Below, piece by piece: positions 3 through 22,924 of a DNA stretch of 25,706 bases (position 1 is the stretch's first letter; each line of letters opens with the position of its first letter). Origin of the DNA: a virus. The stretch is from the IMG/VR virus record IMGVR_UViG_3300025646_000324, positions 1 to 25,706 of that record, one strand, 5' to 3'. The notes beneath the pieces were generated by a model, which did no database searches, had not been told where the DNA came from, and worked only from the letters and a program-made list of their open reading frames with translations. The translations under genes and the position numbers were made by a program.

Positions 3-3000
3 GCTGAGCATTACCCTGAAACTGATGACCAGTTTGTCGCTCGCATCAAGGACCCGACAACGCAAGCTGAGGAAGTCTCCTTCGACGACTACAAGCGCTA
101 CAGGGAACTGGATACTGGCATGGAGCTGCTAGATGCTCCTGGTGTCATTGTTCAGGCCGCTGGTATCGCAGCCAAGGAGCTATACAACGGAGCCAAGGCT
201 GCCGTAAAGCTGGGATTGCAAGGCGAGGGCGGCAAAGCAGCAGCATCACTAGCCGAAGGCGCTACCAGAGGAACCTCAGACCTCACAGCACTCGGCGCTC
301 GCATTGGTGAGGGTGTGTATCAACACCTCGAGCCATACTTCAAGGACTCTGGTAACGTTGAAATTGACCGCTATCATCGGTTCCTAGCACTCAAGTCACT
401 GGACAACATCCGTGAAGCAGCCAGAGCAGGGGACGAAACCCTGCTTGAGGAGTTCGGTTTAACACCAGACATGATCGACAACGATCTGGCTGAGGGCAGT
501 TCCTACTTCCTAGACCCGTCCATGTTCGTTGGTTTTGGTTCTGGCAAAATCACTCAACTAGCTGCCAGGGCAGCATCTAAGCCAGTCCGAATGACTGGAG
601 CAGGACTCACTAAGACGGCACAAGGAATCCGTGGGGTTGCTGACAAGCTGTCTGGAGTTAAAGCATCTGCCACTCAAGCCCTCGACGATGCTACCGCTGG
701 CTATGGTAAATATGCTGGTGCAGGTATTGCAGGAGCTGCAGCGACCAGTCTAGGCGCTGGTCCCGCATTGGGCGCTGCTGGCACAGCTTTGCTAGGATTG
801 CCAGCGCTAGAGGTAGGTGGAGCTGCGCTGTCAGCTTTCGGGGATGCCATGCGCAACACTCCGTCTCGCATTGGAGGACTAAGGCAACTAGCGCTCGATA
901 CACCCGATACACTGGCTGGTAAAGTAGCTGGCCAACTTCAGTTCCTGGACAAGCCCATTGAATACCTCGGCAGAGCCGCTGGAGGTGCTGCAGTGGGTGC
1001 AGGAGTCGGGTCTGGCATAGGATTGCTTGCAGGAGGCATTGAGGGCGCTGCACAGGGCTTTGGAGCTGGTTTCAGCAGTGGAGCGGTTGGTGGCATAGCA
1101 GGACGACTTACAGAAGGCCTCAGGGGCACTGCGCTACGTCGAGCTGAGGTCAACGACTACCAGAACTGGAGAAGCAGAGTCGATAAGCCACTGGGTGAGT
1201 ATTTTGATAGGTATTTCAGAGATCATTCCAGCCGCATCAAAGGCATGGACCTAGTTCAGCTTGTTCAGACAGCGGCAGCTGAGAAGAACTACAACGTCCA
1301 GATACTCGAGCCCAAAGACTATGACGCACGGTTCAAAAACAACTCAGAAGGCGTTCAGCTGATCGAGGGGCAGCAACCAGTGGTCTATCTGCGTGGTGTT
1401 TTTGACGGCAAGAACGGCAAGGACAGTGCTCTGCGTGTGCTGGCTCATGAGGTGTTTCACACGATAGCTAGGCTTGATGGATTTGATGTTTTGGCAGCCA
1501 GGATTGGGCAGGAAGCTGCCGCGATGTATTCTAAGGATGAAATTGGTCAGTTCATCAGAACCTATGAAGGCAAGCTTGATGGCAAGCGCGGGAATCTGAC
1601 TGAGACCAATCAGAACAAAATCATCGAGGAGCTTGCCGCTGAGTATTTCGCTGACCTGATCGTCGGTAAAGACAGTAGCTACATACTGCAGGGCGATGGA
1701 ATCATTGCCTCAATCAGAAACATGATGGCACGCCTGATTCCAGGCAAGCTATCCCGTGTCATTGAGGCGTTTGAGAGCCCTGTGTTTGGACCAATGAAGC
1801 AAGCCAACCCTGCACTGCGCAGAGCGCTTGGCGACTTAGTCAAAGCAAGAAGGAAGGCATACAAGAACGTCATGCTCGGAGATGGCACACCTACACGTGT
1901 CTACAACGAGACTGACCTCGGTAATGACGAAATCTACAAGGAACTTGAAGCACTCGGTGCGGCCTACACTGACAACAAAGGCCGTCGACAAATGCTCAAA
2001 CCTGCAGCTGAGAAACGGATTGAGAAGGACAGAGCGCAAGCCGTTGCAGCAGCACTCGACAAAGTCCCAACATCGACTGTGGACGCGGAGGGTGGAGGCT
2101 TGGTTCGACAACCTGATGGCTCGTATGTAGGCAATCGATTTAGCCCATCTCAGATTCAGGCGATCATTAATGAGCCTGGGATGCCGAACAAAATCATTGA
2201 GGTAATGCAGGTGATTGATCGGGCCCAAGGCGTCGTCAATACCACATACGCTGCTGCGACTGCTAAAGTTCAGCGCAAAGGCGCAAAGAACAGAGGCAAG
2301 TTTGTTACCCGCTACCGGAATCTGCCATACAGCAATCGTGACGCAGCGTTGTATCAGATTGTAGTCAGTCCATCGGCTGGCACGATGAGGGTTGAAGGAC
2401 TGGACATGTCATTCCTGCAAGCTAAGGCTGCTACGAATTGGGAAAGCAATCCAGCGTGGCAGCAGAATTTCGGGAACGTGGACAGCATGATCGCTGACCT
2501 CAAGACCTACATCAATGCCCTGGGTGGCAATACACCTACAGCGCAGGTGTTGGGTTCAGAGACTAAGCGCAATCTGCTGAACAAATTCCTTGGCGTTCGC
2601 AACGTCAGAGGCAACCCGCTGATCTCGCCTGAATACAATGTCAAGGAAGGCGAGCATCCATGGAGAGCATTCCGACTGGATCGTATCATCGCCATGAAGG
2701 CGAGGAACGAGGCTACGCCGACTAGGTTCAGCCAGAGGGCATACGAGCAAGCACAAGGCAACTTTAGTCCGTATGATCCGAGCTACGGAGCTGGGGAGCG
2801 TATTTCAACCAGAACACCTATGGCGGTTAAAGGCAACGTCGGGGACCCGATTGCCGAGCAACTCACCGTTGGCATTGAGCCATACCGCAGAGACCCAGTG
2901 CTCGCAAACAAGGCAGCATCATTAATCAAAGGCTCACGGATTTTGACACCAAGACAGTCGAGTCGCAGCGACATGCGTGTCATCGAGGATTACATACAGC

Positions 3001-4325
3001 ACGGTGTTGATAACCTCCTGTGGCTGCACGACAACGCTCCAGAGGTAGTCAGGCAGACAGGGAAGCTTTGGTATGATGGCGCTCGCAAAATCGTTGACGG
3101 ATGGTCGCAGAAGTATGGCCACAAGCCTGAGAAAATCGCTGCAGTCATAGCAGCATTGTCACCAGGCACTGATTGGTTTCAGAACGTTGATAGAGCCAAG
3201 CGCATCATTGAGTTCAAGCTAGGCAAAGCAAACGCTCGGTGGACACCGAAAATGAATGAGGCAGCTGAGCGCTTAGGGACATCTGACACAACTAAAGCTG
3301 TGATGAAACTCATAAGGAACAAGTCCTACAGTCAAATCACAGACCCAATACAACGAGCTTACTGGTTCAGAGCATACGATGAAGCTTACAACGCCAAATC
3401 GTATCCGGTTATCAGCCCCGACGGAACGTTTGGAGGGCCACAGAAAACGGACAGCGGTGAAGCACGAAAAATTGCTTGGGGCGACTACGGCGTGATCGCT
3501 CGATCGTTTCAGATTCTAGACTTACCCGAAAGCACAAGAACAGCAGTTGCGGAAAACCTCACCGCGCCAGGTAGCCTGAGTCACAAAATCAGGAACTTCT
3601 ACAACAACATCATTAACCCAGCCGGAGAGTTTGGTGATGTGACTGTGGACACACATGCGGTAGCGGCCATCTACCTCAAGCCTTTTAGTCAAAAAAGCCC
3701 TGAGGTTACTCACAACTTGGGAGCTGGTATCAGCAATACGCGATATGGCATCAGCGGGACCTATGGCATCAATGCCGAAATTTACCGTAGAGCTGCCGAA
3801 CGCAGAGGGCTGCTACCCAGAGAAATGCAATCAATCACATGGGAAGCAGTTAGAGGGCTTTATTCGCCCGAATTCAAACGAAATAAGAAGTATGTTGCCA
3901 AAATCGACACCGTATGGGACCGTTTTCGGAGAAGAACAATCTCGCTCGATGAAGCCAGAAAATCCATCACAGAACTTGCAGGAGGTTTCTCAAGACCCGA
4001 TTGGGCAGAGCGTGGTGGCAATGATTCAGGAGCTGGGTCTACCAATGACCAAGAAGTCCTACCTCGAGGTGATATTCGGGGGCGAGATTCCCGAGGAAAT
4101 TCCCCAGGAGACGCTCAACGAGATCCCTCCCAGCTTGACCTGAAATTTTCTCCTGCTCGCTCCCTCAACAACCGAGGTGGTGCCATCTACACCAACGAGC
4201 GAGGGAACAGAGCTATCCAGCTGTCTAGCAGGTCAGGCGTCAGAGTCTACTCAGATCGCGGCAAACGAATCGGTCCTGTGTTTAGCTCAGTGGAGAAAGC
4301 GCAGGATTACTTGAGCAGGAGGTAG
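3..4325 (+). CDS. Giant virion/ejection-type polyvalent protein with metalloprotease motif (5' partial)
   Basis: The frame is open to the left edge (first codons AEHYPETDDQ), so the ATG at 120 is internal and the true start lies outside the window; at least 1440 residues are visible. Numbering from the Met at 120: residues about 190-335 hold two Gly/Ala-rich hydrophobic stretches that could contact membrane. A zinc-protease HEVFH motif is at 443-447, with a candidate third ligand in EELAAEYFAD near 504-508. A conserved-looking module (AAVIAALSPGTDWFQNVDRA) lies near 1010-1030, and a short basic C-terminal module ends in EKAQDYLSRR. FSP motifs recur at F674, F882 and F1343, between blocks. Such multi-domain proteins in tailed phages are usually internal virion or DNA-ejection proteins, sometimes called large polyvalent proteins. 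The role is inferred from size, architecture and position on the structural side; the HExxH is seen directly. Confidence 0.75.
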   Translation, partial: AEHYPETDDQFVARIKDPTTQAEEVSFDDYKRYRELDTGMELLDAPGVIVQAAGIAAKELYNGAKAAVKLGLQGEGGKAAASLAEGATRGTSDLTALGARIGEGVYQHLEPYFKDSGNVEIDRYHRFLALKSLDNIREAARAGDETLLEEFGLTPDMIDNDLAEGSSYFLDPSMFVGFGSGKITQLAARAASKPVRMTGAGLTKTAQGIRGVADKLSGVKASATQALDDATAGYGKYAGAGIAGAAATSLGAGPALGAAGTALLGLPALEVGGAALSAFGDAMRNTPSRIGGLRQLALDTPDTLAGKVAGQLQFLDKPIEYLGRAAGGAAVGAGVGSGIGLLAGGIEGAAQGFGAGFSSGAVGGIAGRLTEGLRGTALRRAEVNDYQNWRSRVDKPLGEYFDRYFRDHSSRIKGMDLVQLVQTAAAEKNYNVQILEPKDYDARFKNNSEGVQLIEGQQPVVYLRGVFDGKNGKDSALRVLAHEVFHTIARLDGFDVLAARIGQEAAAMYSKDEIGQFIRTYEGKLDGKRGNLTETNQNKIIEELAAEYFADLIVGKDSSYILQGDGIIASIRNMMARLIPGKLSRVIEAFESPVFGPMKQANPALRRALGDLVKARRKAYKNVMLGDGTPTRVYNETDLGNDEIYKELEALGAAYTDNKGRRQMLKPAAEKRIEKDRAQAVAAALDKVPTSTVDAEGGGLVRQPDGSYVGNRFSPSQIQAIINEPGMPNKIIEVMQVIDRAQGVVNTTYAAATAKVQRKGAKNRGKFVTRYRNLPYSNRDAALYQIVVSPSAGTMRVEGLDMSFLQAKAATNWESNPAWQQNFGNVDSMIADLKTYINALGGNTPTAQVLGSETKRNLLNKFLGVRNVRGNPLISPEYNVKEGEHPWRAFRLDRIIAMKARNEATPTRFSQRAYEQAQGNFSPYDPSYGAGERISTRTPMAVKGNVGDPIAEQLTVGIEPYRRDPVLANKAASLIKGSRILTPRQSSRSDMRVIEDYIQHGVDNLLWLHDNAPEVVRQTGKLWYDGARKIVDGWSQKYGHKPEKIAAVIAALSPGTDWFQNVDRAKRIIEFKLGKANARWTPKMNEAAERLGTSDTTKAVMKLIRNKSYSQITDPIQRAYWFRAYDEAYNAKSYPVISPDGTFGGPQKTDSGEARKIAWGDYGVIARSFQILDLPESTRTAVAENLTAPGSLSHKIRNFYNNIINPAGEFGDVTVDTHAVAAIYLKPFSQKSPEVTHNLGAGISNTRYGISGTYGINAEIYRRAAERRGLLPREMQSITWEAVRGLYSPEFKRNKKYVAKIDTVWDRFRRRTISLDEARKSITELAGGFSRPDWAERGGNDSGAGSTNDQEVLPRGDIRGRDSRGNSPGDAQRDPSQLDLKFSPARSLNNRGGAIYTNERGNRAIQLSSRSGVRVYSDRGKRIGPVFSSVEKAQDYLSRR

Positions 4326-5034: not shown

Positions 5035-5448
5035 ATGAAGACCTACAAATGCGAGTATGGCAGGTATATCGATGGCAATTTGGTGGCAGAAAAAATCCAA
5101 GCGGAAAGTCACAGGGAAGCATATGAAAAATTCCTCGCTAATCAGGGGGTGTTCCCCGAGGCTGTCGTTGTTACTTCTGGCTTTATGGATGGGGGAACAA
5201 TTTTTAACGACCACATCGAAAAAACACGCGAGGAATTAGCTGACAGCCAAGCAATTGCCATCAAGCAGACTGCAACCGAAGACGCAGAGGCATCTCTAAC
5301 CTCAACCGACATGCTGCTGAAGCAGCTGATAGCGAAGCAGGATGAGACAAATCAGTGGCTTCTCAAAATCAGGCGGGCACTGATATCCATTTTCATAATC
5401 ATTGCGATGTGGCATTTGTTCGGGTGGCGAATTATTCCGATACGCTAA
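5035..5448 (+). CDS. Membrane-anchored hypothetical protein
   Basis: Predicted 137 aa, start ATG (MKTYKCEYGRYIDG). The N-terminal half is a small soluble region (…SHREAYEKFLANQGVFPE…). Residues about 90-110 form a coiled-coil-like stretch (DMLLKQLIAKQDETNQWLLKI), followed by a C-terminal hydrophobic segment (ALISIFIIIAMWHLFGW, about 114-131). The LIAKQDETNQWL-plus-anchor pattern resembles C-terminally anchored proteins common in Planctomycetes/Verrucomicrobiota (from memory). It ends inside the last 17 bp of the convergent glycosyltransferase-like gene. Function unknown. Confidence 0.6.
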   Translation: MKTYKCEYGRYIDGNLVAEKIQAESHREAYEKFLANQGVFPEAVVVTSGFMDGGTIFNDHIEKTREELADSQAIAIKQTATEDAEASLTSTDMLLKQLIAKQDETNQWLLKIRRALISIFIIIAMWHLFGWRIIPIR

Positions 5449-6055
5449 GCCACCCACTCAACATCTCAGCTTTCTGCTCAACGCTACCTCGAACCCCATC
5501 AGCCATCGTGCAGATGGCATGAAAGCAGAGGACTTTAGGGATGGGCACAAGTCGCTGGGTTTTGGTGTTGGCAAAGCAGGGTGGTAGCACCTGGACGCGG
5601 TCTTTAGCCACTGCCCTCAAAGCATCCTGATCATGAGCACCAGGGTGCGAGTGCATGTATGCCAAGCAATGATGCAGAAGCCACATCAGTTCGCTCGTAT
5701 TCCTGCCCACAATCAATCCAGCATTCAGGTTGGCTTGCTCGTCCTCGCACATAGCCCAAATACCATCTGAGCAGGTCTGAGACAGCTCTGTGAATGCTCC
5801 AGGCATCCAGACTATGTCCAGGTCAGCAAACGCTGTCACAGAGCCTTGTGGGATGATTTTTAGGGCTTTGATGGCATTCTCCAGCTGCCATCTGATAGCA
5901 GACAACCACTCGCCCTGCATGAAGTTGCCAGGATCTGAGCTGGAGCGCTGAAAATGAATCCACTCCACAGGTTCACACCTCCTCAAGCTGGGCTCGAAGT
6001 AGTTTCGCCTGATGCCGTCATGGCTAGTGGTGCCCGATGTGACTAGGTAGACCAT
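5432..6055 (-). CDS. Nucleotide-diphospho-sugar transferase-like protein
   Basis: Predicted 207 aa. The segment VTAFADLDIVWMPG near residues 72-85 carries the acidic DxD-type motif that binds the metal-nucleotide sugar in GT-A glycosyltransferases. LNAGLIVGRN near 108-117 matches the following NxGxxxxR/N strand of the nucleotide-diphospho-sugar transferase family. The end, PKVLCFHAI, also fits that fold. The start overlaps the upstream gene (6043-6603) by 13 bp, so the two are very likely co-transcribed from the promoter at 6637-6610. The pair may modify host surface glycans (seroconversion/superinfection exclusion) or virion proteins; acceptor and sugar cannot be told from sequence. Confidence 0.65.
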   Translation of the reverse strand: MVYLVTSGTTSHDGIRRNYFEPSLRRCEPVEWIHFQRSSSDPGNFMQGEWLSAIRWQLENAIKALKIIPQGSVTAFADLDIVWMPGAFTELSQTCSDGIWAMCEDEQANLNAGLIVGRNTSELMWLLHHCLAYMHSHPGAHDQDALRAVAKDRVQVLPPCFANTKTQRLVPIPKVLCFHAICTMADGVRGSVEQKAEMLSGWLSVSE

Positions 6056-6603
6056 ACGAGTTCAGGGTCGCCGTGAGGAAACGGCAGGATGGATGGTTTG
6101 GGACCTAAAGTAACGATGCGGTGCATTGGCTCAAAATCAGCCCTCAGCTTCATCAGGTGACCTCGCATCACGTCCTCAGGGATACGAGCAGGGTCAGGTG
6201 TTCCACCGTCGTAGAAATGAGTCTCAGGCTTACTGTAGTCCATATCACACCCAACTAGATTCAGCTCTGTGGCAATGCCGTGCAGGGTAGCTTTGTTTAG
6301 GATGTCGTAGGCTGCGTTGACGACCATCGTCCCGTTGTAGGGGCAGGAATACCAGTGAGGTCGATGGAGGTATGAGGCACACATACGGAAGCCTCTGAAA
6401 TGATCTGTGTCCACTCCGGTGACCCTGCGCATGTCGTAATTCTGAGACCACAGGAAGTCTTCAGAGACATACCACGTGGCGTGCTTCTGACCGACTACTC
6501 GGATGGCGTTATTGAGGCAGTGAGCTTGGTCGAAGGAGTCTTCGTTTTTGGCCCACCAATGAGGCGAGTAGGGGGCTGACCCTACCAGCAGGACTTTCTG
6601 CAT
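6043..6603 (-). CDS. Putative glycosyltransferase / DUF115-like protein
   Basis: Predicted 186 aa, start ATG at 6603. It begins with a Rossmann-like strand and loop (MQKVLLVGSAPYS). Later it has VNAAYDILNKATLHGIATELNLVGCDMDYS (about 93-122) followed by ETHFYDG. Ordering of a conserved N-terminal GSAP loop, an 'NG..V' helix and a 'L.G.D.DY' strand resembles sialyltransferase-like (GT42) or DUF115-type enzymes, but I cannot assign it firmly. It is first in a two-gene operon with the sugar-transferase-like gene. The operator copy at 6619-6631 is 15 bp from its ATG, and a predicted start point falls almost at the ATG, so the message may be nearly leaderless. Confidence 0.6.
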   Translation of the reverse strand: MQKVLLVGSAPYSPHWWAKNEDSFDQAHCLNNAIRVVGQKHATWYVSEDFLWSQNYDMRRVTGVDTDHFRGFRMCASYLHRPHWYSCPYNGTMVVNAAYDILNKATLHGIATELNLVGCDMDYSKPETHFYDGGTPDPARIPEDVMRGHLMKLRADFEPMHRIVTLGPKPSILPFPHGDPELVWST

Positions 6604-6769: not shown

Positions 6770-6862
6770 GGAGAGATGGCTGAGTGGTCGAAAGCAACGG
6801 TTTGCTAAACCGTCGTCGTGGGATAACTGCGACCGCGGGTTCGAATCCCGCTCTCTCCGCCA
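6770..6862 (+). tRNA. tRNA-Ser (anticodon GCU)
   Basis: The acceptor stem is GGAGAGA/TCTCTCC. A D-arm with GCT/AGC follows, then anticodon stem ACGGT/ACCGT with loop TTGCTAA (anticodon GCT, reading AGC/AGU). A long class-II variable arm (GTCG…CGAC), the T-arm GCGGG-TTCGAAT-CCCGC, discriminator G and an encoded CCA complete it. All stems pair, so the gene is full length, not just the 3' fragment that phages often carry. It sits 165 bp upstream of the integrase start and is the likely attachment target. Confidence 0.95.
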
Positions 6863-7018: not shown

Positions 7019-7027
7019 GTTCAGCCC

Positions 7028-8188
7028 ATGCCTAAGCCGAGGTCCAAATTTTCCATCAGTCGCTATACCTATAACAACGGTAAGCGAGCATGGTTGGTGT
7101 CTGGAACAATGCGTCACGGATTGCGTGTTAGGAGGTTCTTTGAGGACTACGATAAAGCCGAGCGATGTAGGCAGCAGATCGAGTTTAGCGAGAAGTCAGA
7201 GACCGAGGTTGATACCTATGCCAAGACTCGGCTGACAAGCGGCCAAATCGCTGACGCGGAGATGGCTTATCAGCTACTTGGTAAGCTTCCGATTGCTTCA
7301 CTGTCTGAGGCTGTTGATTGGTGCTCCAAGAACTACGTAGCCCCAGAAACGACCAAGTCTGTCCATGAGGCTTACCAGGAGATGATGAAGGACAAGGCCA
7401 GGGTCAACTTGCGAAAACGCTCCTTGGACGAACTGAGGGTCATGATCGGCAAAATCGACCAAAAGCTGGGTGCCCTGCAGATCCATCAAGTTACCTCAGC
7501 GAGTCTTGAGGAACTGATTCCTTCGACCGCATCGCCTCGAACCAGAAACAAGTATGTCGTCAAGTTTGCTCAGTTCTTCAACTGGGCAATTAAGCGAGGC
7601 TACATCCAGAGCAATCCTGCTGATGGCATTTCTAAGGCCAGAGTGGATGCTGTCGAGAACATTGCGCTGTCCATGGCGCAGGTTAAGGCAGTTCTTAAGG
7701 CGTCATACGGAACTCCTATCCAATCCTTAGTAGCATTGCAGCTGTTTGCTGGGCTAAGGAGCGAGGAAGCTTGGCGACTTGATTGGTCACAGGTGGACCT
7801 CGATGACAAAGCGCTCTATGTCAAACCTGATGGCGCTAAGAAGCGCAGCGCCAGAACGGTTGAATTGCATGATGAAGTTCTGCCCTGGCTAGATTTGTCG
7901 CAGCCTATCGCCCCAGAGGTTAAGGAGGGTGTTCCATCAACCTACCGATACCGTCAGGCATTTGAGCAGATGAGGGCTGATGCCAAAATTACGGACCGCA
8001 AGTATGACAACGTGCTTCGACACACCGCCCTCAGCTTCTACTCAGCCAAGACCCAGAGCCTTGATAAGACCGTTCACTGGGGCGGCACTGGGGTTGGGCC
8101 GTTCTTCCAAAACTACAAGTCACGGGTCAAACTCAAGGACGTCAACGCCTACTGGAGCCTGACGCCTGAGTCACTGGGGTTGGAGTAG
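7028..8188 (+). CDS. int: Tyrosine-type site-specific integrase
   Basis: Predicted 386 aa from ATG 7028 (MPKPRSKFSISRY). A 13-residue-longer version would need a TTG at 6989 and would run through the repeats, so ATG is preferred. The N-terminal arm-binding-like region is basic. The central region (…SVHEAYQEMMKDKARVNLRKRSLDELRVM… to …FFNWAIKRGYIQSNPA) is a typical SAM-like core-binding domain. Catalytic elements are R244 in AGLRSEEAWRLDW, VLRHTALSFY (Arg box II; the usual His three residues before R is Asn), HWGG, and the nucleophile Y363 in FFQNYKSRV. It directly follows a complete tRNA-Ser, as expected for integration into a tRNA 3' end. No strong Shine-Dalgarno is seen. Confidence 0.93.
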   Translation: MPKPRSKFSISRYTYNNGKRAWLVSGTMRHGLRVRRFFEDYDKAERCRQQIEFSEKSETEVDTYAKTRLTSGQIADAEMAYQLLGKLPIASLSEAVDWCSKNYVAPETTKSVHEAYQEMMKDKARVNLRKRSLDELRVMIGKIDQKLGALQIHQVTSASLEELIPSTASPRTRNKYVVKFAQFFNWAIKRGYIQSNPADGISKARVDAVENIALSMAQVKAVLKASYGTPIQSLVALQLFAGLRSEEAWRLDWSQVDLDDKALYVKPDGAKKRSARTVELHDEVLPWLDLSQPIAPEVKEGVPSTYRYRQAFEQMRADAKITDRKYDNVLRHTALSFYSAKTQSLDKTVHWGGTGVGPFFQNYKSRVKLKDVNAYWSLTPESLGLE

Positions 8189-8197
8189 GGCGGGGAA

Positions 8198-8315
8198 GTG
8201 TATTTAAAACGATACACTTGGTATTGATTGGGCAAAACAACCGCCTTGGAGTGTATCGAATACGATACGCATGTGTATCTAATACGATACGCTACGTGTA
8301 TTCAAAACGATACAC
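8198..8315. repeat. Array of four 20-bp imperfect palindromes (iteron/centromere-like)
   Basis: Copies lie at 8198-8217, 8251-8270, 8273-8292 and 8296-8315; the last three repeat every 22-23 bp, about two helical turns. The consensus is GTGTATYNAAWACGATACRC, with half-sites G(T/C)GTATCG facing each other. The array lies between the 3' ends of two convergent genes, a poor place for promoter operators. It is more like plasmid iterons, a partition site, or a cooperative binding site at an origin. No gene is seen in 8189-8359. Confidence 0.75.
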
Positions 8316-8359
8316 TAACTAATAAAGAACTGATCAAAGAAACTGAGCAATTTCTAGGT

Positions 8360-11300
8360 TTAAGTTTTTGCGAGTTGGACGTGCCCTAGGTGCCATTGCC
8401 ACAAGGCCCTGGCAATGCTTTCTTCTGCGAGGGTATAGGAAGCTTGATCAGCACCCAAAACATAGCCCAAGGCGATGCTAGAGCAGTCAGCACCCATTTC
8501 CTGGACAGCTTGTCGCAGCTTCTCAAAATGGCTGTTGAAGTTTTCGAATTGCTCAACTGCAGCTTTAATCCAATCTCCGCTTGCTGGAATTGAGAAATCA
8601 AAAGTTTCAAACACGCTGCGCAAAGCTTTACACACGTTGTTTCGGGCATAATACCCCCGACGACCTCCCGTAAAGAAATACGCAAGCTGGGTCATTGCCC
8701 CAACTATGATCCGCGGCTCTTCCTCGCTGGCGCTGGGTTCGGCCATGTATGCGTTTAGCAGAACCTCAAAAGCTTGTTCGGGAGTGCGGTTTGCTTGTTT
8801 GCGCTCTTTATCAGCTACATCAACAAAGCTTTGACTAAATGGCCACAGACCACTTTTACCGCAGGCTGCTAAAAGCGCGTTTTCGGTGTGAACATCCAAG
8901 TCCCCACAAATCTCCAAGACATTCTCGTGATAGGTCTGCGTCTCCGGCCACAGATCTGCATTGATGTTCTGCGTGTCAGCTGCTTTCTCAGCTACCGTTT
9001 CCCTGTTTAAGTATGGGCCGCAGTTAGGATTTTCATGGGTAACCCCATCCCAGTGGTTTATTGCTTGGGCCAACGCTGATACGTGATCAGTTGTGGGCTT
9101 GTAAATGCTTTCAATGTAAGCTGCGTATTCTGAGCTGTTATGATGTCGAATCCGGCTAAGTCTGTCACAGGCTTCCCTTGCAGACTCTCCAACCCCACCT
9201 CTTCGCAAGCTTTTGACATCGTCAAATTGACCTCTAGCTCCATACCTGCGGTCTCCAACACTGACGGCTTGATCCTGCGTGTTTGTGGTTACAGTTGGGG
9301 CATCCCAGTTATTATTTAAATGGTCCTGCCAATCCCACTGGCCTTTAATCGTGGGTTTCAGGGGGGGTGCAGCAAAGTTAAAAAGTGCGGCAGCATCAAG
9401 GAAGTCGTCGGAGACGCGTTGACTTTCAAGCTTGGCAACAATTTGCTGTGCTGCTCTTTGAAATTGATCAAATTGATCTGCGTTTATGTCTTTTATTCGC
9501 ATTCCAGACATCGGAATGATTGTTGACTCCGCAATCAGATTGACGGTTTTGACAACTTTGGGGTGTAGGATGTGTAACTGCTGATCCGTCCGCGCACCAT
9601 AAAGAAAATAAACTACCAGGCTTGCGATGAACTCGCTGGTTTTGGGAAAGTCTATGTCAGGCGACACGCTTTCGGTGCGCTGTGTTGTCAGCATTTCAAA
9701 AAGAACCCCCGGCGAGCAGAGTTCCTTCAATGGAGCTTTCCTATGTTCGTCAATAAAGCATGACAACTGCCCCAGCGCTTCAAACTTATTAGGCTGAGAT
9801 CCGCGATACCTAACCCACATTATGCAGGCCATGATGCAGACATGAGTGGGGACTTTTTTGTCGGACCACATTTGTCTGATTCCGCGATAGTCAATCCTTG
9901 AACCGGGCAAAGCTTCAACCGAATCGGCAAAGTCTGGCCATACACTTTCAATACGCTTAAGCAGCATGCGCTTGGGGTAAGCCCTTCTATCTGCTTGATC
10001 ATAGCCACTTATGGCATTTTGAAACGCAATCCAATGAGAATTCCTGTCGTTAAGTCTGACTTTATGAGAAGGCTCGACTTTTTGTGCCTGCGGCGTTGTT
10101 GTCGTTTGGCCGCCTTGCTTTACGCTTCCCGTATCGGGTCTTACCACGTGCCGCAAGTCCATCAAGAGCGCTGGTCCTGAAAAGCCGAATGGTCCAGGCA
10201 TACCTGGCGCGTGTATTGGCGTTTCTCCTTCACGGGAAAGCACCATTTCCGGAGTAGGTTCTTGCGTTGTTTCTATATGCAGCCATGTGGCACTAAACAC
10301 CGAGCTAAGGGCATCCCACTCGTCGCTATCAAAGTCAACCTGAAACGTTTTTCCCGTTGTGGTGCGAAACCTCAAATAGACAACAGTTGGATGGTGCAAA
10401 TTTCGGACAGGCAGGTAGGCCCCTTCAAAAGAGCATTCCCTTAGGTCCTGTTCACTGAGTTCATCCAGCATTGTCAATTTGGATGCGAATTCGCGATCCC
10501 GCTGCAGCTCACTCCAATCACCCAGTAATCCCTTCTCCGCCTTCTTTGGTAAGCGAAACTCTGGCTCACCTGGCACTTCCTCCCATACTTCGCATTGCAC
10601 AAAGCAAGGGAAAAAGTCTTTCTCTGAGTGCGTGGTGCCCTTGAGCATACCATCACTACCAATGCTGTGATAAATCAAGTCACTGCGTCTTCTGTAAAAT
10701 GCCTTCGTGCTCTCACCCTCAGGTAAACCTAAAGGCTCTAGTGGGTATCCGCTTCTACCGTGTGGCTCTATGTCAACCTGGACGTCGTATCGCTCACCGT
10801 CACCGTATTCTTTCCTGATGACGTATTTGCAGGGTAGGAATGGGATGCTGTAGGCGTAAGCCGCAGGCACGTCAGGGTAGTTTACTGTTACCCTTGAGGC
10901 GCGCTTATCAGCAATCAAAACACCTGCAGCTTGCCGGATCAGCGTAGCACCGTGTTGAATAAGAGGTAATTTAAGCAGTCTGCCAGGGCTAGGGTCTATG
11001 GCGTTGCCTAAAAGAGTCCACAATTCGACGCCATCTACTGTATCGTCAGACTCATGGGCTTTTTGCCAAATGCCTTGATAATCGAGTCTAAGCATGGACT
11101 TGTAGGCCAGCCCAAGTGTTGTTTCCAAAACATCAAGAACATCAGTTTCAGTCCTGCCGCTCGCCTCAAAATGCTGAACTGTTTTGGCAAAATTGTTTTT
11201 CGGGGTCTCGTCCATATCGCCAAAGTAGAACCTGGCAATTTGGCTGTCTTTACTGTTGTCCAATTGGTCAATGACCCCGCTCAAAACGTAAAGCGCTCTG

Positions 11301-11995
11301 TGTTTGCCCACGATGCCACCGTAGAGATCAAGCGTAAGTCCGCCAATCAGCTTATCATCGTCAGGTTCTATTTTGGTGATTTTGCAAAACCTCTTGCCGG
11401 TGGTAGTTAGGAAATCTGTGACATAGTGGTTTGCGTATCCTGAGTAGCGAACCGCAAGTGCCGTATTTACTTCCTCAGTAGTCAAATCCGATTCGTCGGT
11501 CAGCTTTTTGGGCAAAGGCAGGCGCCGTCTCCAGAAATATTTTTTTTCCTCTGTCTTGCTGTCAACTTTTTCGAAGACACCCAGCTTGGTGTAGTAGGCA
11601 AGGACGTCTTCTCCTGAAGTTGGATCCCTGTAAGTTTCGGCTTCCGTAGCTAAACCTACTTGCTCGAGTTCGGACGCGTGTTCAATCAGTGCGCAATCTA
11701 CTAATTCCTCCAGATCAAAGTGCGACAATTGTGGTTTAGACTGTCGCCGTCCGCTGGCTTTGTTTAGAGGGATCGATTTTTTAACCAAAGAAGTCGTGCC
11801 TGGCTCCAGGGTGGGGTCGTGCTTTGGTCTGATTTTTCCGCTGGCTATGAGCTTCTTCCACAAGGCCACAGCCATCTCATCGACCAGCTCCGCATCCTTC
11901 CAGCCAAATTCTTCACGCAGCGATTGCACGATGAACTTGGTGGTGGGATTACCAAGCTTTGACTGCAGCCCCTTTATTTTGGGTGTTTCGCTCAT
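8360..11995 (-). CDS. 1211-aa orphan protein of unknown function
   Basis: A single uninterrupted 1211-codon frame on the opposite strand to the flanking phage operons. The start ATG at 11995 overlaps the stop of the upstream small gene (ATGA) and has an AAAGGAC Shine-Dalgarno, so translation is probably coupled. I recognise no catalytic motif: no P-loop, DEAD box, zinc-finger cluster, signal peptide or clear membrane segment. Residues 1-110 are charged and may include a basic linker (GRRQSKPQ). A Gln/Thr-rich linker (KQGGQTTTTPQAQK) near 655 suggests two large lobes, and another linker lies near 920 (NTQDQAVSVGDRRYGARG). Soluble and multi-domain. Placement beside the integrase and a palindrome array, in reverse orientation, marks it as an accessory gene: defence, superinfection exclusion or replication/maintenance are possibilities, none shown by sequence. 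Confidence 0.85.
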   Translation of the reverse strand: MSETPKIKGLQSKLGNPTTKFIVQSLREEFGWKDAELVDEMAVALWKKLIASGKIRPKHDPTLEPGTTSLVKKSIPLNKASGRRQSKPQLSHFDLEELVDCALIEHASELEQVGLATEAETYRDPTSGEDVLAYYTKLGVFEKVDSKTEEKKYFWRRRLPLPKKLTDESDLTTEEVNTALAVRYSGYANHYVTDFLTTTGKRFCKITKIEPDDDKLIGGLTLDLYGGIVGKHRALYVLSGVIDQLDNSKDSQIARFYFGDMDETPKNNFAKTVQHFEASGRTETDVLDVLETTLGLAYKSMLRLDYQGIWQKAHESDDTVDGVELWTLLGNAIDPSPGRLLKLPLIQHGATLIRQAAGVLIADKRASRVTVNYPDVPAAYAYSIPFLPCKYVIRKEYGDGERYDVQVDIEPHGRSGYPLEPLGLPEGESTKAFYRRRSDLIYHSIGSDGMLKGTTHSEKDFFPCFVQCEVWEEVPGEPEFRLPKKAEKGLLGDWSELQRDREFASKLTMLDELSEQDLRECSFEGAYLPVRNLHHPTVVYLRFRTTTGKTFQVDFDSDEWDALSSVFSATWLHIETTQEPTPEMVLSREGETPIHAPGMPGPFGFSGPALLMDLRHVVRPDTGSVKQGGQTTTTPQAQKVEPSHKVRLNDRNSHWIAFQNAISGYDQADRRAYPKRMLLKRIESVWPDFADSVEALPGSRIDYRGIRQMWSDKKVPTHVCIMACIMWVRYRGSQPNKFEALGQLSCFIDEHRKAPLKELCSPGVLFEMLTTQRTESVSPDIDFPKTSEFIASLVVYFLYGARTDQQLHILHPKVVKTVNLIAESTIIPMSGMRIKDINADQFDQFQRAAQQIVAKLESQRVSDDFLDAAALFNFAAPPLKPTIKGQWDWQDHLNNNWDAPTVTTNTQDQAVSVGDRRYGARGQFDDVKSLRRGGVGESAREACDRLSRIRHHNSSEYAAYIESIYKPTTDHVSALAQAINHWDGVTHENPNCGPYLNRETVAEKAADTQNINADLWPETQTYHENVLEICGDLDVHTENALLAACGKSGLWPFSQSFVDVADKERKQANRTPEQAFEVLLNAYMAEPSASEEEPRIIVGAMTQLAYFFTGGRRGYYARNNVCKALRSVFETFDFSIPASGDWIKAAVEQFENFNSHFEKLRQAVQEMGADCSSIALGYVLGADQASYTLAEESIARALWQWHLGHVQLAKT

Positions 11996-12174
11996 TGCGT
12001 CCTTTTGGACTTGGTCTTGAGTTTGGCCGCAACGTTTCTGGTCACGAGGTCTGTGAGGTAATCCGAGCGTGTTGCATGCCTGGATGTGGCCACTACTTGG
12101 TCCAAATCGTCAAACAACTCACTCTCTAGCCACACTGATACCAGTCTTTTTCCCGCTTTTCTTTGGTTAGCCAT
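11992..12174 (-). CDS. Ribbon-helix-helix (CopG/Arc-like) DNA-binding protein
   Basis: Predicted 60 aa from ATG 12174 (MANQRKAGKRLVSVWLESEL); an upstream ATG at 12204 adds 10 residues unlike the fold. The pattern KRLVSVWLESELFDDLDQVV followed by RSDYLTDLVTRNV gives a beta strand plus two helices, the RHH fold of small dimeric repressors. Its stop overlaps the start of the 1211-aa gene by 4 bp. It likely represses its own operon, or binds one of the two repeat sets (12319-12392 or 8198-8315). Family is fairly clear; target is inference. Confidence 0.7.
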   Translation of the reverse strand: MANQRKAGKRLVSVWLESELFDDLDQVVATSRHATRSDYLTDLVTRNVAAKLKTKSKRTQ

Positions 12175-12245: not shown

Positions 12246-12392
12246 AAAAATCGGTATCCTCAAAAAAGTGCAGCACACAAAAACATCAAAAAGCCAAGTA
12301 AAAACAGCAATTCCTTGCGACACAAAAAACAGTATACCAAAAAGCGTGAAAATTCTTCTAGACACAAAAACGGGTATACCGTAAATTGCGTG
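12246..12392. promoter_or_regulatory. Divergent control region with GTATACC repeats
   Basis: Two related 30-bp segments, 12319-12348 and 12361-12392, share GACACAAAAA, then a GTATAC palindrome, then an A-rich run and GCGTG, 42 bp apart. A weaker third copy (CGGTATCC) lies at 12252-12259. The region 12175-12395 separates the leftward RHH/1211-aa operon from rightward small regulators, the usual layout of a lysogeny-type switch. No convincing -35/-10 pair was found by eye. Confidence 0.5.
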
Positions 12393-12395
12393 CAA

Positions 12396-12566
12396 ATGAG
12401 AGACTCACATCCCACCCAAGAGCAACTTCTCCAGCTACAGGTCCTCGCCAATTACAGCGAAACATCCATTTCCGAGGTGCTTGACATGATAATCAACGCA
12501 GCTCTCGAGGGAATCCCAGCAAATCAATCCAAAGAATCACAAGCCGCGCAGACAATCGCAAATTAA
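12396..12566 (+). CDS. Small regulator-like protein, 56 aa
   Basis: From ATG 12396 the product is MRDSHPTQEQLLQLQVLANY…, 56 aa. A longer frame back to 12186 would include the repeat-rich control region and low-complexity Lys/Asn sequence, so the shorter start is preferred. The core (TQEQLLQLQVLANYSETSISEVLDMIINAALEG) reads as two helices joined by a turn, like the helical half of an RHH or antitoxin-type repressor. It is the first rightward gene from the divergent control region and is followed after 7 bp by another tiny gene. Function is inferred from size and place. Confidence 0.45.
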   Translation: MRDSHPTQEQLLQLQVLANYSETSISEVLDMIINAALEGIPANQSKESQAAQTIAN

Positions 12567-12573
12567 CGATATT

Positions 12574-12735
12574 ATGAAACACCACTCATCAGACAATAAG
12601 GAGGCCCAAGCCAAGACTCGGGTAAACATGTCCCCAGATCTGTTTCGCCGGATGCTAGAGGTCGCGCAAACAACAGGCAGGCCTCCCGTGCTTGCTCTGC
12701 AGCTAATCGGTGCAAGCGGAATAAAAGACAACTGA
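12574..12735 (+). CDS. Small ribbon-helix-helix-like protein, 53 aa
   Basis: ATG 12574 gives MKHHSSDNKEAQAKTRVNMS… and ends at TGA 12733-12735. The segment KTRVNMSPDLFRRMLEVAQT followed by GRPPVLALQLIGASGI matches the strand-helix-helix of RHH proteins (RVxMSPDLxxxLxxxAxxxGR). It lies between a 56-aa regulator-like gene and the 220-aa gene, with gaps of 7 and 9 bp, so it is probably in one operon with both. No Shine-Dalgarno is seen. Confidence 0.55.
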   Translation: MKHHSSDNKEAQAKTRVNMSPDLFRRMLEVAQTTGRPPVLALQLIGASGIKDN

Positions 12736-13408: not shown

Positions 13409-13792
13409 ATGAGGCGGGCAGCTAGAACTGATGGCAACCAAAGGGCTATCGTATCAGGACTCCGGAGAGAAGGGATGAGTGTTCTAGACCTATCTGCCGT
13501 CGGTAGAGGCTGCCCTGACATCGCCGTAGGTTACGCAGGGTCTAATTGGCTCTTCGAAATTAAAGACGGCTCCAAGCCGCCTTCAGCGAGGCGACTCACA
13601 CCGGCCGAAAAGTCCTTCCATAACACCTGGGCTGGTCAGGTAAGTGTGGTCACCTCGTTGGATGATGCGCTCGGCATCGTCAAGCAAACCCCTGGAAGCA
13701 ATTCCAAGGGTCCTTCCGAGCAAATTTTTACTCACGAAATGAGCCAGATCGAAACTGGACCAGTCACTGACTCACAACCAAAAGAGGTCTAA
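13409..13792 (+). CDS. VRR-NUC domain nuclease
   Basis: Predicted 127 aa from ATG 13409, immediately after the upstream stop; the in-frame ATG at 13217 would overlap that gene by 190 bp and adds unrelated sequence. The fold signature is RTDGNQRAIVSGLRREGMSV, then GCPDIAVGY (P36-D37), then WLFEIKDG (E50, K52): the PD…ExK active site of VRR-NUC nucleases of the PD-(D/E)XK superfamily. The Gln/Glu after 'N' (Q11) and the short length match phage members, which are proposed structure-selective nucleases in recombination or replication. A polar tail follows the domain. Operator copy 3 follows the stop. Confidence 0.85.
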   Translation: MRRAARTDGNQRAIVSGLRREGMSVLDLSAVGRGCPDIAVGYAGSNWLFEIKDGSKPPSARRLTPAEKSFHNTWAGQVSVVTSLDDALGIVKQTPGSNSKGPSEQIFTHEMSQIETGPVTDSQPKEV

Positions 13793-20256: not shown

Positions 20257-20952
20257 ATGCGAGTGCTGGACCTGTTTAGTGGAATAGGCGGGTTCAGCCT
20301 CGCAGCAGAACAAGTTGGATGGGAAACTGTCGGTTTTTGTGAATCAGATGAATACTGCAAGAAAGTCCTTAGAAAGCACTGGCCAAGTGTCAGGATCTGG
20401 GAAGACATTAAAAAGCTCGCTCAAATCGAAGAACCAATCGGATGCGACGTCATCACAGGAGGCTTTCCATGCCAACCATTCAGCAATGCCGGGAAGCAAA
20501 GAGGCACTCATGACGACAGATACCTCTGGCCGCAGATGCTTAAAGTTATTGAACGCGAAAGACCCGCTTGGATCATTGCTGAAAACGTTGCTGCCATCAT
20601 CCCGATGGGGCTCGACAAAGTGCTATTTGACTTGGAAGCCCAAAGCTACTCCGCAAGGGCGCTTGTTATTCCAGCTGCATCTGTCGGCGCCCCACACCCC
20701 AGGCAAAGGGTATGGATTATTGCACACTCCAACATCCAAAATGGTTCAAGGCTCACCGTCACAAAGCCACAGCGGGTGGATGAGGCAAGACCGCAAAAGT
20801 GGTGGGAAAATGAACCCAGCTTGGGTCGAGTGGCTGATGGGATACCCAACAGGACACACCGCCTTAGATGCTTAGGCAACGCTATTGTGCCTCAAGTTGC
20901 AACTGAGATTTTTAGGGCGATAAAAATAACCAATCAGTTTCTGATTCGGTAA
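20257..20952 (+). CDS. DNA (cytosine-5)-methyltransferase
   Basis: Predicted 231 aa, ATG 20257 with AAGGGG upstream. Motif I is LDLFSGIGGFS (4-14), motif IV GGFPCQPFS with nucleophile C72, motif VI ENV (E109), motif VIII RQRVW (149-153), and GNAIVP (207-212) closes the fold. It transfers a methyl group from S-adenosylmethionine to C5 of cytosine. The stretch between motifs VIII and IX, which holds the target-recognition domain, is only about 50 residues, short as in many phage enzymes. No cognate restriction gene is seen, so it is probably an anti-restriction solo enzyme. It ends 19 bp inside the convergent LRR gene. Confidence 0.93.
   Translation: MRVLDLFSGIGGFSLAAEQVGWETVGFCESDEYCKKVLRKHWPSVRIWEDIKKLAQIEEPIGCDVITGGFPCQPFSNAGKQRGTHDDRYLWPQMLKVIERERPAWIIAENVAAIIPMGLDKVLFDLEAQSYSARALVIPAASVGAPHPRQRVWIIAHSNIQNGSRLTVTKPQRVDEARPQKWWENEPSLGRVADGIPNRTHRLRCLGNAIVPQVATEIFRAIKITNQFLIR
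20315..20875 (+). other. Overprinted second-frame ORF inside the methyltransferase gene
   Basis: A 186-aa open frame shifted by +1 relative to the methyltransferase. Its C-terminal two thirds contains CYLTWKPKATPQGRLLFQLH, then GYGLLHTPTS, then MNPAWVEWLMGYPTG. I recall very similar segments (CYLTWK..GRLLFQL, GLLPTPT, LNPxFVEWLMGFPxGWT) in phage methylase-associated proteins. The same DNA in frame one encodes motifs VI to X of the methyltransferase. No Shine-Dalgarno is visible at its ATG. Whether it is translated, frameshifted into, or a relic cannot be decided by eye. Confidence 0.4.
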
Positions 20953-21902
20953 AATCGTTTAGTAGCGCCTTCGTCCAGATCTACCTCTGAAGCCCCGCCA
21001 GTAGCCACAATAACAATCCTCCAGAGTTTCCACGGACCATCTGGGCTATCAGCCACATCGATAGTCTTAACCTCTCCTGGTACGCCTTTTACGGTTACTA
21101 CTGGCGCAAGACGAATTTCTAACGATTCCTCAGGGCCTACAAGCTCCGCGTCCTGCACGAGAAAACCATTTGGCCAGGCTGTTTCAAGCCCAATGCGAAT
21201 AGCCTCTGATTCGGAGTGGTAACGTTCCGGTATGCGGACTTGGGTCAGATACAGGCTGCTCGCAAAAGCCTTATCACCAATTTCGCTTGCACCACTCGGA
21301 ATGGTGACAGATGTCAGTTTTGAGCACATAGAGAATGCCATGCCTTCGATAGTCCTTACGCTACTGGGTAAAACGATACTTTCCAATCCGCTCTGGCTAA
21401 AAGCCACGGATGAAATTTTAGTTATTCCTTCTGGTAGATCGATTTGCTTAAGCCCAGCGCAGCCGTTAAACGTGCCCTCTGGAATCTCCGGAATCGATAC
21501 CGGCCAGTCAACCACAGTAAGCTTTATACAGTTGTAAAAAACAAATTCCTTGAGCGTGGCTTTAGGCGGTATTGAGATGCTCAAAAGAGAGTGAGCGCCC
21601 TGGAAGGCATGTTTTCCAATTTCAACCACGCTGTCCGGAATCTGGACTGACGTTATTAGCGTGCGGTCCATGAACGCGTATTCTCTTATTTTGGTAACAG
21701 GATAGCCGTCAATTTCATCCGGTATCACCAAGTCTCCTCTAGTGTTGGTCGCGCATCCGTAGATGTGAACCTCAAACCCGATTGTCTCATAAAAAAGTGA
21801 TCCCCACTGGCCCTTCTGTGCAGTGACTTCCAGACAAAGCGCCAAAGACATCACTCCTAAAGCAAAGCGTAACATCAGATTCATCACTCGATTTCCTATC
21901 AT
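20934..21902 (-). CDS. Secreted BspA-type leucine-rich-repeat protein A
   Basis: Predicted 322 aa, ATG 21902 (alternative ATG 21884). An N-terminal signal peptide (MNLMLRFALGVMSLALCLEVTAQ) precedes about six degenerate 23-residue LRR_5 repeats (…ITSVQIPDSVVEIGKHAFQG…, …LTSVTIPSGASEIGDKAFAS…). A C-terminal module follows (IRLAPVVTVKGVPGEVKTID…DGPWKLW…KRFYRIRN). This module ends many exported verrucomicrobial proteins (from memory). It lies 16 bp downstream of a paralogue with the same architecture, so the two are a tandem duplication in one operon. An extracellular or cell-surface binding role is likely; the ligand is unknown. Confidence 0.85.
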   Translation of the reverse strand: MIGNRVMNLMLRFALGVMSLALCLEVTAQKGQWGSLFYETIGFEVHIYGCATNTRGDLVIPDEIDGYPVTKIREYAFMDRTLITSVQIPDSVVEIGKHAFQGAHSLLSISIPPKATLKEFVFYNCIKLTVVDWPVSIPEIPEGTFNGCAGLKQIDLPEGITKISSVAFSQSGLESIVLPSSVRTIEGMAFSMCSKLTSVTIPSGASEIGDKAFASSLYLTQVRIPERYHSESEAIRIGLETAWPNGFLVQDAELVGPEESLEIRLAPVVTVKGVPGEVKTIDVADSPDGPWKLWRIVIVATGGASEVDLDEGATKRFYRIRN

Positions 21903-21918
21903 AACAGTCAGTGCGAAT

Positions 21919-22869
21919 TCAATCCCTCACCCTGTAGAAGCGCTTTTCAGCGCCTTCGTCTAAGGCAATTTCAGTCACGCCGCCCTCACCTATAACAACG
22001 GTTTGCCAATCAGTCCATGGACCGTCTGCGGTCTCAGACACTTCAATGGCCACAGCTTTCTTGAATGTGCCTGTGACAGTTATCACTGGAGCCAGGCGAA
22101 TTGATAGATCTGATGAGCCAGGTGCACTGGTACTAAGGAAAAAGCTGTCTGGCCAGAGGTGTGCTAAAAGAAGACGATTTGCCTCTGATTGACTATGATA
22201 TGCTTCTGGTATGGTGATCGAGGTCAGGCTATCGCAACCCATGAAGACCTGTCCCCCAATGCTGGTGACGCCCTCGGGGATGGTGATCGAGGTCAAGCTG
22301 CTGCACCATATGAATGCATTACGTCCGATACTGGTGACGCCCTCGGGGATTGTGATCGAGGTTAGGCTATTGCACCAAGCGAAAGTCATGTCCCCAATGC
22401 TGGTGATCCCCTTAGGGATGGTAATTGAGGTCAGGCTGTAGCAGCTATTGAAGGCATTAACTCCGATGTTGGTGACGCTCTCTGGGATGGCAATCGAGCT
22501 CAGGCTGCTGCATTCGAGGAAGGCCCCATCTCCGATGCTGGTGACGCCTTCAGGGATAGAAATTGATGTTAGGCTGTTGCAGCTCCCGAATGCCCCCCAT
22601 TCAATGCTGGTGACACTGTCGGGGATTGTGATCGAGCTCAGGTTTCTGCACCTCTCGAAGGCTAACTCCCCGATGCTGGTGACAGGTAGGCCTTCAATTT
22701 CATTGGGAATGACCAACTCACCCTCAGCTAATGTCTTGCAGTCAGTAATCGCCACCTGACCATCAGCAATTTCATATTTCAGGTCACCGAGTGTACCAGC
22801 ACAAACGCTGGAGCTAAGGATTGAAAGAACCAACACGAGCCAGATGGAATGCATTAAGGGCTTTCTCAT
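21919..22869 (-). CDS. Secreted BspA-type leucine-rich-repeat protein B
   Basis: Predicted 316 aa from ATG 22869 (MRKPLMHSIWLVLVLSILSSSVCAG), a clean signal peptide; an ATG at 22920 adds 17 residues and would place the start beside the terminator. Seven near-identical 23-residue repeats (SLTSITIPEGVTSIGxxAFxxC) form an LRR_5 array, followed by the same C-terminal module as its neighbour (IRLAPVITVTGTFKK…DGPWTDW…KRFYRVRD). The repeats are far more regular than in protein A, implying recent expansion. It is first in the leftward operon and would be exported. A lysogenic-conversion factor is plausible. Confidence 0.85.
   Translation of the reverse strand: MRKPLMHSIWLVLVLSILSSSVCAGTLGDLKYEIADGQVAITDCKTLAEGELVIPNEIEGLPVTSIGELAFERCRNLSSITIPDSVTSIEWGAFGSCNSLTSISIPEGVTSIGDGAFLECSSLSSIAIPESVTNIGVNAFNSCYSLTSITIPKGITSIGDMTFAWCNSLTSITIPEGVTSIGRNAFIWCSSLTSITIPEGVTSIGGQVFMGCDSLTSITIPEAYHSQSEANRLLLAHLWPDSFFLSTSAPGSSDLSIRLAPVITVTGTFKKAVAIEVSETADGPWTDWQTVVIGEGGVTEIALDEGAEKRFYRVRD
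22211..22693 (-). repeat. Seven tandem 69-bp repeats encoding LRR units
   Basis: Units begin at 22211 and every 69 bp after. They share core words such as GGTGACGCCCTCGGGGAT and ATCGAGGT(C/T)AGGCT, while a middle segment varies. Each unit encodes one 23-residue leucine-rich repeat. Similar adjoining units make copy-number change by recombination or slippage likely. Confidence 0.8.
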
Positions 22870-22924
22870 GATGGCACTTCCTACCATACCGCAGAGCAGA
22901 TAATCAATAGGCAACAGCATTCAC

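Follow-up and report, generated by a model that had tools for sequence, protein, structure and literature searches.

In phages of the Vibrionaceae, an antiviral hotspot lies between the cI repressor and the integrase (Rousset et al. 2022, PMC9122126), and the defence gene tha of the S. aureus phage 80alpha has been described with the transcript of the lysogeny module (PMC11087260). A slot between integrase and regulator thus has precedent, and such a location is compatible with cargo that defends the lysogen. The locus analysed here, in a window of 25,706 bp (the whole stretch of DNA under analysis), resembles the Vibrionaceae hotspot (PMC9122126) in that an optional gene stands between integrase and regulator and opposite to the lytic genes; it differs in that it belongs to another phage lineage, matches no known defence family and shows turnover in few genomes, any antiviral role of the gene being putative. 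As in the Tha/Ith system of 80alpha (PMC11087260), transcription of the accessory gene would go with that of the lysogeny module, although no HEPN domain was found in the window and neither a demonstrated inhibitor gene nor a sequence relation connects the two. Two protein families complete the comparison: the OGG-like family PF21790, stand-alone bacterial proteins of about 260 aa that are putative 8-oxoguanine DNA glycosylases, and the ribbon-helix-helix (RHH) phage repressors of PHROG 4738.

The window is a linear virus record of metagenomic origin (IMGVR_UViG_3300025646_000324) and, like most of its relatives, a genome fragment. Its left side holds a gene for a 1401-aa DUF7178 protein (plus strand), small cargo that includes a glycosyltransferase-like ORF (minus), a tRNA-Ser and the integrase (plus); the middle holds a palindrome array, the 1211-aa ORF and the RHH gene (both minus) and an early/replication operon (plus) with nuclease-like proteins, a replication-initiator-like protein and a DnaB-like helicase; on the right follow a cytosine methyltransferase, two leucine-rich-repeat proteins (minus) and the terminase (plus), the names helicase, leucine-rich-repeat and terminase being given by eye from the sequence. 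The features of the region are:

6770..6862, plus strand: tRNA-Ser (GCT), found by ARAGORN and Rfam; adjoins the integrase, probable attP
7025..8188, plus strand: tyrosine integrase (PF00589, 8e-8; PHROG 1, 9.5e-33)
8198..8316, no strand: array of four palindromes of about 20 bp, GTGTAT-N8-ATACRC
8360..11995, minus strand: ORF of the 1211-aa accessory protein; no database match, distant homologue p642 in the sister phage L004
8363..8992, minus strand: C2 (aa 1002-1211), possibly another degenerate OGG-like domain, from the C1+C2 profile
9311..10075, minus strand: degenerate OGG-like domain C1 (aa 641-895), aligned to the p642 C-terminus and, by HHalign, to a profile of OGG-like proteins and p642
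11570..11650, minus strand: N-terminal motif YxDPxxGExxxAYxTxLGVxE (aa 116-142), common with p642
11992..12174, minus strand: 60-aa putative RHH regulator (PHROG 4738); orthologues in L004, L019, L022 and L030
12309..12385, no strand: imperfect direct repeat of 35 bp in two copies, upstream of the RHH gene, operator candidates
12399..12566, plus strand: small RHH-like ORF, called from sequence, first gene on the early-operon side; no family match in Pfam or PHROGs
12574..12735, plus strand: another small ORF, RHH-like and called from sequence, also on the early-operon side; no credible family match in Pfam or PHROGs

The minus-strand pair is as the initial annotation described it: the RHH gene ends in a stop codon that overlaps the start codon of the 1211-aa ORF as ATGA (first A at 11995), and both genes are oriented opposite to the integrase and early operon. 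When the window was shuffled 20 times by dinucleotides, no open frame exceeded 273 codons, which places the 1211-aa ORF far beyond chance, and the ORF resembles the remaining genes of the window in codon usage (RSCU correlation 0.59). The description of a very large soluble protein without a recognised motif likewise fits, since the protein looks soluble, with a highest 19-residue hydropathy mean of 1.08; direct searches gave no match in Pfam (toxin families included), PHROGs, NCBIfam, PADLOC or PDB, among 50,697 phages or 72,556 plasmids, or in IMG/VR and GTDB genomes, these last two scans using a few exact short peptide patterns that exclude close relatives only. No PADLOC defence family matched the protein up to E 5.

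An integrase search led to the sister phage L004, whose integrase is 73-74% and whose terminase is 93% identical to that of the window; it is part of a 44-kb contig, and the same stretch also occurs on a second contig, L003. The portal-, scaffold-, capsid- and tail-tube-like proteins of L004 look podovirus-like. Searching with an exonuclease alignment yielded more relatives, of which L019, L022 and L030 carry the whole integrase-to-early-operon stretch with a readable RHH gene; a terminase alignment found no prophage relative among GTDB genomes. In both the window and L004 the slot reads integrase, large gene (minus), RHH gene (minus), early operon (plus), the large gene of L004 being a 642-aa ORF in the same slot (p642; L004 11677-13605, minus strand), whereas in L019, L022 and L030 the integrase and the RHH gene have no large gene between them. 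One cargo family is seen in the slot, in two divergent forms, and since this family was seen in two phages only, slot turnover is thinly sampled. The accessory position first proposed is upheld by this comparison: the phage is temperate and podovirus-like, and the 1211-aa gene is optional cargo that it carries between integrase and regulator, probably for use while the prophage is dormant. The large protein represents a genuine family, hitherto undescribed, whereas the slot is of a known kind. So far, homologues of the large gene were found only in this phage lineage, an outcome that the initial annotation had named as one that would count against its reading. The tRNA-Ser lies directly upstream of the integrase and its 3' part, from the anticodon arm to the acceptor end, is identical in L004, where it alone stands upstream of the integrase; it thus marks the probable attP, and after integration the prophage would have the large gene close to one of its ends, flanked by integrase and regulator. 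As the tRNA-Ser is complete in the window and reduced to its 3' part in L004, the attP region of the one is unlike that of the other at the 5' end.

The RHH protein was recognised weakly, by the transcriptional-repressor family PHROG 4738 (E 7e-4); NikR-type models gave 0.001-0.03, below the cut-off, and Pfam gave no match. It resembles the RHH phage repressors in this weak match and in its place at the early-operon switch region, and is a putative repressor. Four related phages have an orthologue in the corresponding position, which makes five counting the window: that of L019 is 34% identical (tblastn), further ones were found by alignment or profile, and that of L004 (13889-14095) is a separate gene matched by a profile of the other RHH proteins at E 1.7e-8. 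Because L019, L022 and L030 keep the RHH gene without the large gene, the putative RHH regulator is a lineage-wide one at the early-operon boundary and the large gene is an optional insert. In L004 the RHH gene and the large gene (start at 13605, minus strand) lie about 280 bp apart without translational coupling, a feature of the window only. The earlier picture of a 1211-aa protein with its own repressor thus keeps its genes and their overlap, while the dedicated pair found no support. The same observations bear on a type II toxin-antitoxin-like maintenance pair, in which the RHH protein would be the antitoxin and the large protein the toxin; a small RHH gene followed by a larger one across an ATGA overlap is the expected layout, but this reading is disfavoured because the RHH gene is inherited without its partner in three phages, besides being uncoupled in L004. 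The large protein matches no toxin family, the known toxins of RHH pairs are far smaller than 1211 aa, and we regard such a pair as extremely improbable.

Both repeat sets noted at the flanks are real, but the palindromes are on the integrase side of the large gene, next to its 3' end, and not at its promoter. GTGTAT-N8-ATACRC occurs at four places, in the window confined to 8198-8315, where 0 would be expected; the 35-bp direct repeats at 12309 and 12351 are identical at 26/35 positions, and none of 300 shuffles was equally good. At the junction of integrase and slot, L004, L019 and L022 carry palindromes of other sequence, and the assignment of the array to the large gene is weakened since two of these phages, L019 and L022, have a palindrome at this junction and no large gene. 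A role of the large protein in lysogeny control, where it would co-regulate or bridge DNA with the RHH protein or bind the array, and so act in prophage silence or in integration and excision, would accord with the ATGA coupling in the window, with palindromes on the integrase side, with a gene placed beside integrase and immunity region and with domains derived from a DNA enzyme (see below). We nevertheless consider it unlikely: three related phages have the RHH gene alone, the two genes are about 280 bp apart in L004, and phages that lack the large gene (L019 and L022) have a junction palindrome too.

Two further repeats were observed. The window and L004 both carry, beside the large gene at its 3' end, a conserved tandem repeat of about 13 bp, AACTRATCAAAGA-like (window 8318-8352, L004 11627-11662); the two phages are otherwise unalike there, and the repeat may represent integrase arm sites. 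The palindrome RGGTGTAATACACCY has six copies in the window (4961, 6618, 13794, 17871, 20216 and 22980) where 0.01 matches are expected; its AAT loop is always on the plus strand, the copies lie mostly close upstream of plus-strand gene starts, and the core is also present in L002, L004, L007, L008, L012 and L017; a dispersed (stoperator-like) operator, a promoter element or an mRNA hairpin are possible.

The relation between the two large proteins rests on both of their ends. A common N-terminal motif aligns by BLASTP at 52% over 27 aa (E 9e-5; 1.3e-6 for the phmmer pair), and the C-terminal blocks are colinear, with 0/500 shuffles equally good at a gap opening of 8; these alignments establish p642 as a syntenic, very divergent homologue of the 1211-aa protein. 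Residues 451-616 of p642 match PF21790 at E 3.6e-7 and 27.9-30.5 bits, above the curated cut-off of 27 bits and with most of the profile covered. A tblastn search with this domain returned plasmid proteins, mostly of about 260 aa, at E down to 2e-12, from Pseudomonas, Agrobacterium, Rhizobium, Roseomonas, Paraburkholderia and Bradyrhizobium; the four that were checked match PF21790 at 4e-13 to 2e-16, and a profile of the plasmid OGG-like proteins recovers p642 at 5.9e-32. The bacterial relatives keep GPAYFTK...YILDQW, with small variations in two, and the p642 counterpart is PATYCSLIYF...YMLSSH, in which Ser occupies both the column of the Lys of FTK and that of the Asp of ILD. We take this Lys and Asp to be the HhH-GPD catalytic pair, as in OGG1-type enzymes. 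By alignment, the p642 C-terminus is an OGG-like (PF21790) domain that lacks the catalytic Lys and Asp. A fused N-terminal RHH domain in p642 was also considered and dropped, the lineage RHH profile giving E 0.36 and L004 having its separate RHH gene.

For the 1211-aa protein the same relation is fainter. A Pfam search gave no PF21790 match, and a single-sequence hmmsearch against the OGG family gave E 0.1, near noise. HHalign of C1 against a profile of OGG-like proteins and p642 scored 30.5, the best of 60 shuffles reaching 19.7; the C1+C2 profile scored 42.8 (P 1.3e-5), the shuffle control covering C1 only, and C2 alone was not significant. C1 reads FIASLVVYF...HILHPK, with Ser in the Lys column and His in the Asp column, and in C2 (GAMTQLAYF...YYARNN) neither column is conserved. 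We hold with moderate confidence that the 1211-aa protein contains two OGG-like copies, apparently more degenerate than that of p642. AlphaFold2 models of p642 and C1, built with few homologues, were unusable (pLDDT 44 and 41), and Foldseek with the poor p642 model was uninformative. Compared with PF21790 proteins, the p642 domain aligns over nearly the whole profile, and C1 and C2 match weakly, above control; the phage domains differ in lacking Lys and Asp, in lying within proteins of 642-1211 aa that add large unrelated N-terminal and middle parts, and in being probably duplicated. An active enzyme on DNA bases, with its active site relocated or of a different kind, would follow naturally from descent from a glycosylase-like family, but both catalytic columns are gone in 3/3 phage domains (p642, C1 and C2) and we think it very improbable. 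A parallel to Brig1 was set aside, as Brig1 belongs to the uracil-DNA-glycosylase superfamily, which has a different fold (PMC11078745).

The reading we prefer, with confidence somewhat short of even, is that the 1211-aa protein is a lysogeny-side accessory protein that would handle DNA without glycosylase chemistry, most likely in superinfection exclusion or defence. Its gene would be read in the lysogeny direction together with that of the RHH regulator; we infer that a lysogen would make the protein from the RHH-controlled promoter, that its glycosylase-derived domains would bind DNA without excising bases and that it would guard the lysogen against incoming phage DNA. Against this stand the missing PADLOC match, a family seen in two phages only, the OGG-family hmmsearch at E 0.1, the L004 arrangement, in which large gene and RHH gene do not form an operon, and the central part of the protein, aa 160-640, which none of the comparisons made explains. 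More tentatively still, and rather doubtfully, the protein would be a catalytically dead tandem DNA-binding module built from a DNA glycosylase fold, a new type of prophage antiviral or counter-defence protein. If true, prophage accessory slots outside the phages of Enterobacteria and Vibrio, which are well studied, would gain an undescribed family, and the fold of a base-excision enzyme would have been reused by phages without its chemistry.

Two free-standing bacterial PF21790 proteins have Lys and Asp intact (L039 8049-8570 and L043 7941-8732); one of their genes adjoins a Shedu SduA-domain gene and the other an NB-ARC gene, which makes these proteins candidates for defence-linked glycosylase-like proteins. 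Plasmid-borne free-standing relatives, one beside Shedu, are candidates of interest in their own right. They also suggest a counter-defence decoy: bacterial OGG-like proteins may serve in defence, and an inactive glycosylase homologue would occupy or block their DNA sites or partners. Phage copies that retain the domain with the active site lost are what a decoy would look like; yet the defence role of the bacterial proteins is putative, other bacterial copies stand among metabolic genes or transposons, and the lysogeny-side orientation is unusual for counter-defence, so that we judge a decoy quite unlikely.

Elsewhere in the window, the 1401-aa DUF7178 protein (120-4325) has a 1522-aa homologue in L004 with a different C-terminal half and the same last ~50 residues. 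Between this large virion-side protein and the integrase lies a second cargo site of the lineage, with variable minus-strand cargo, glycosyltransferase-like and others (window 5432-6603, L019 5674-6621, L026 5977-8199). The cytosine DNA methyltransferase (20257-20952) has 231 aa only and matches PADLOC type II methyltransferase models, with no restriction enzyme recognised adjacent. The two leucine-rich-repeat proteins (20934-22920, minus strand) are secreted-looking and of BspA type, which is unusual for phage cargo; the sister phage has similar genes (L004 7724-8494, L007 3294-6029).
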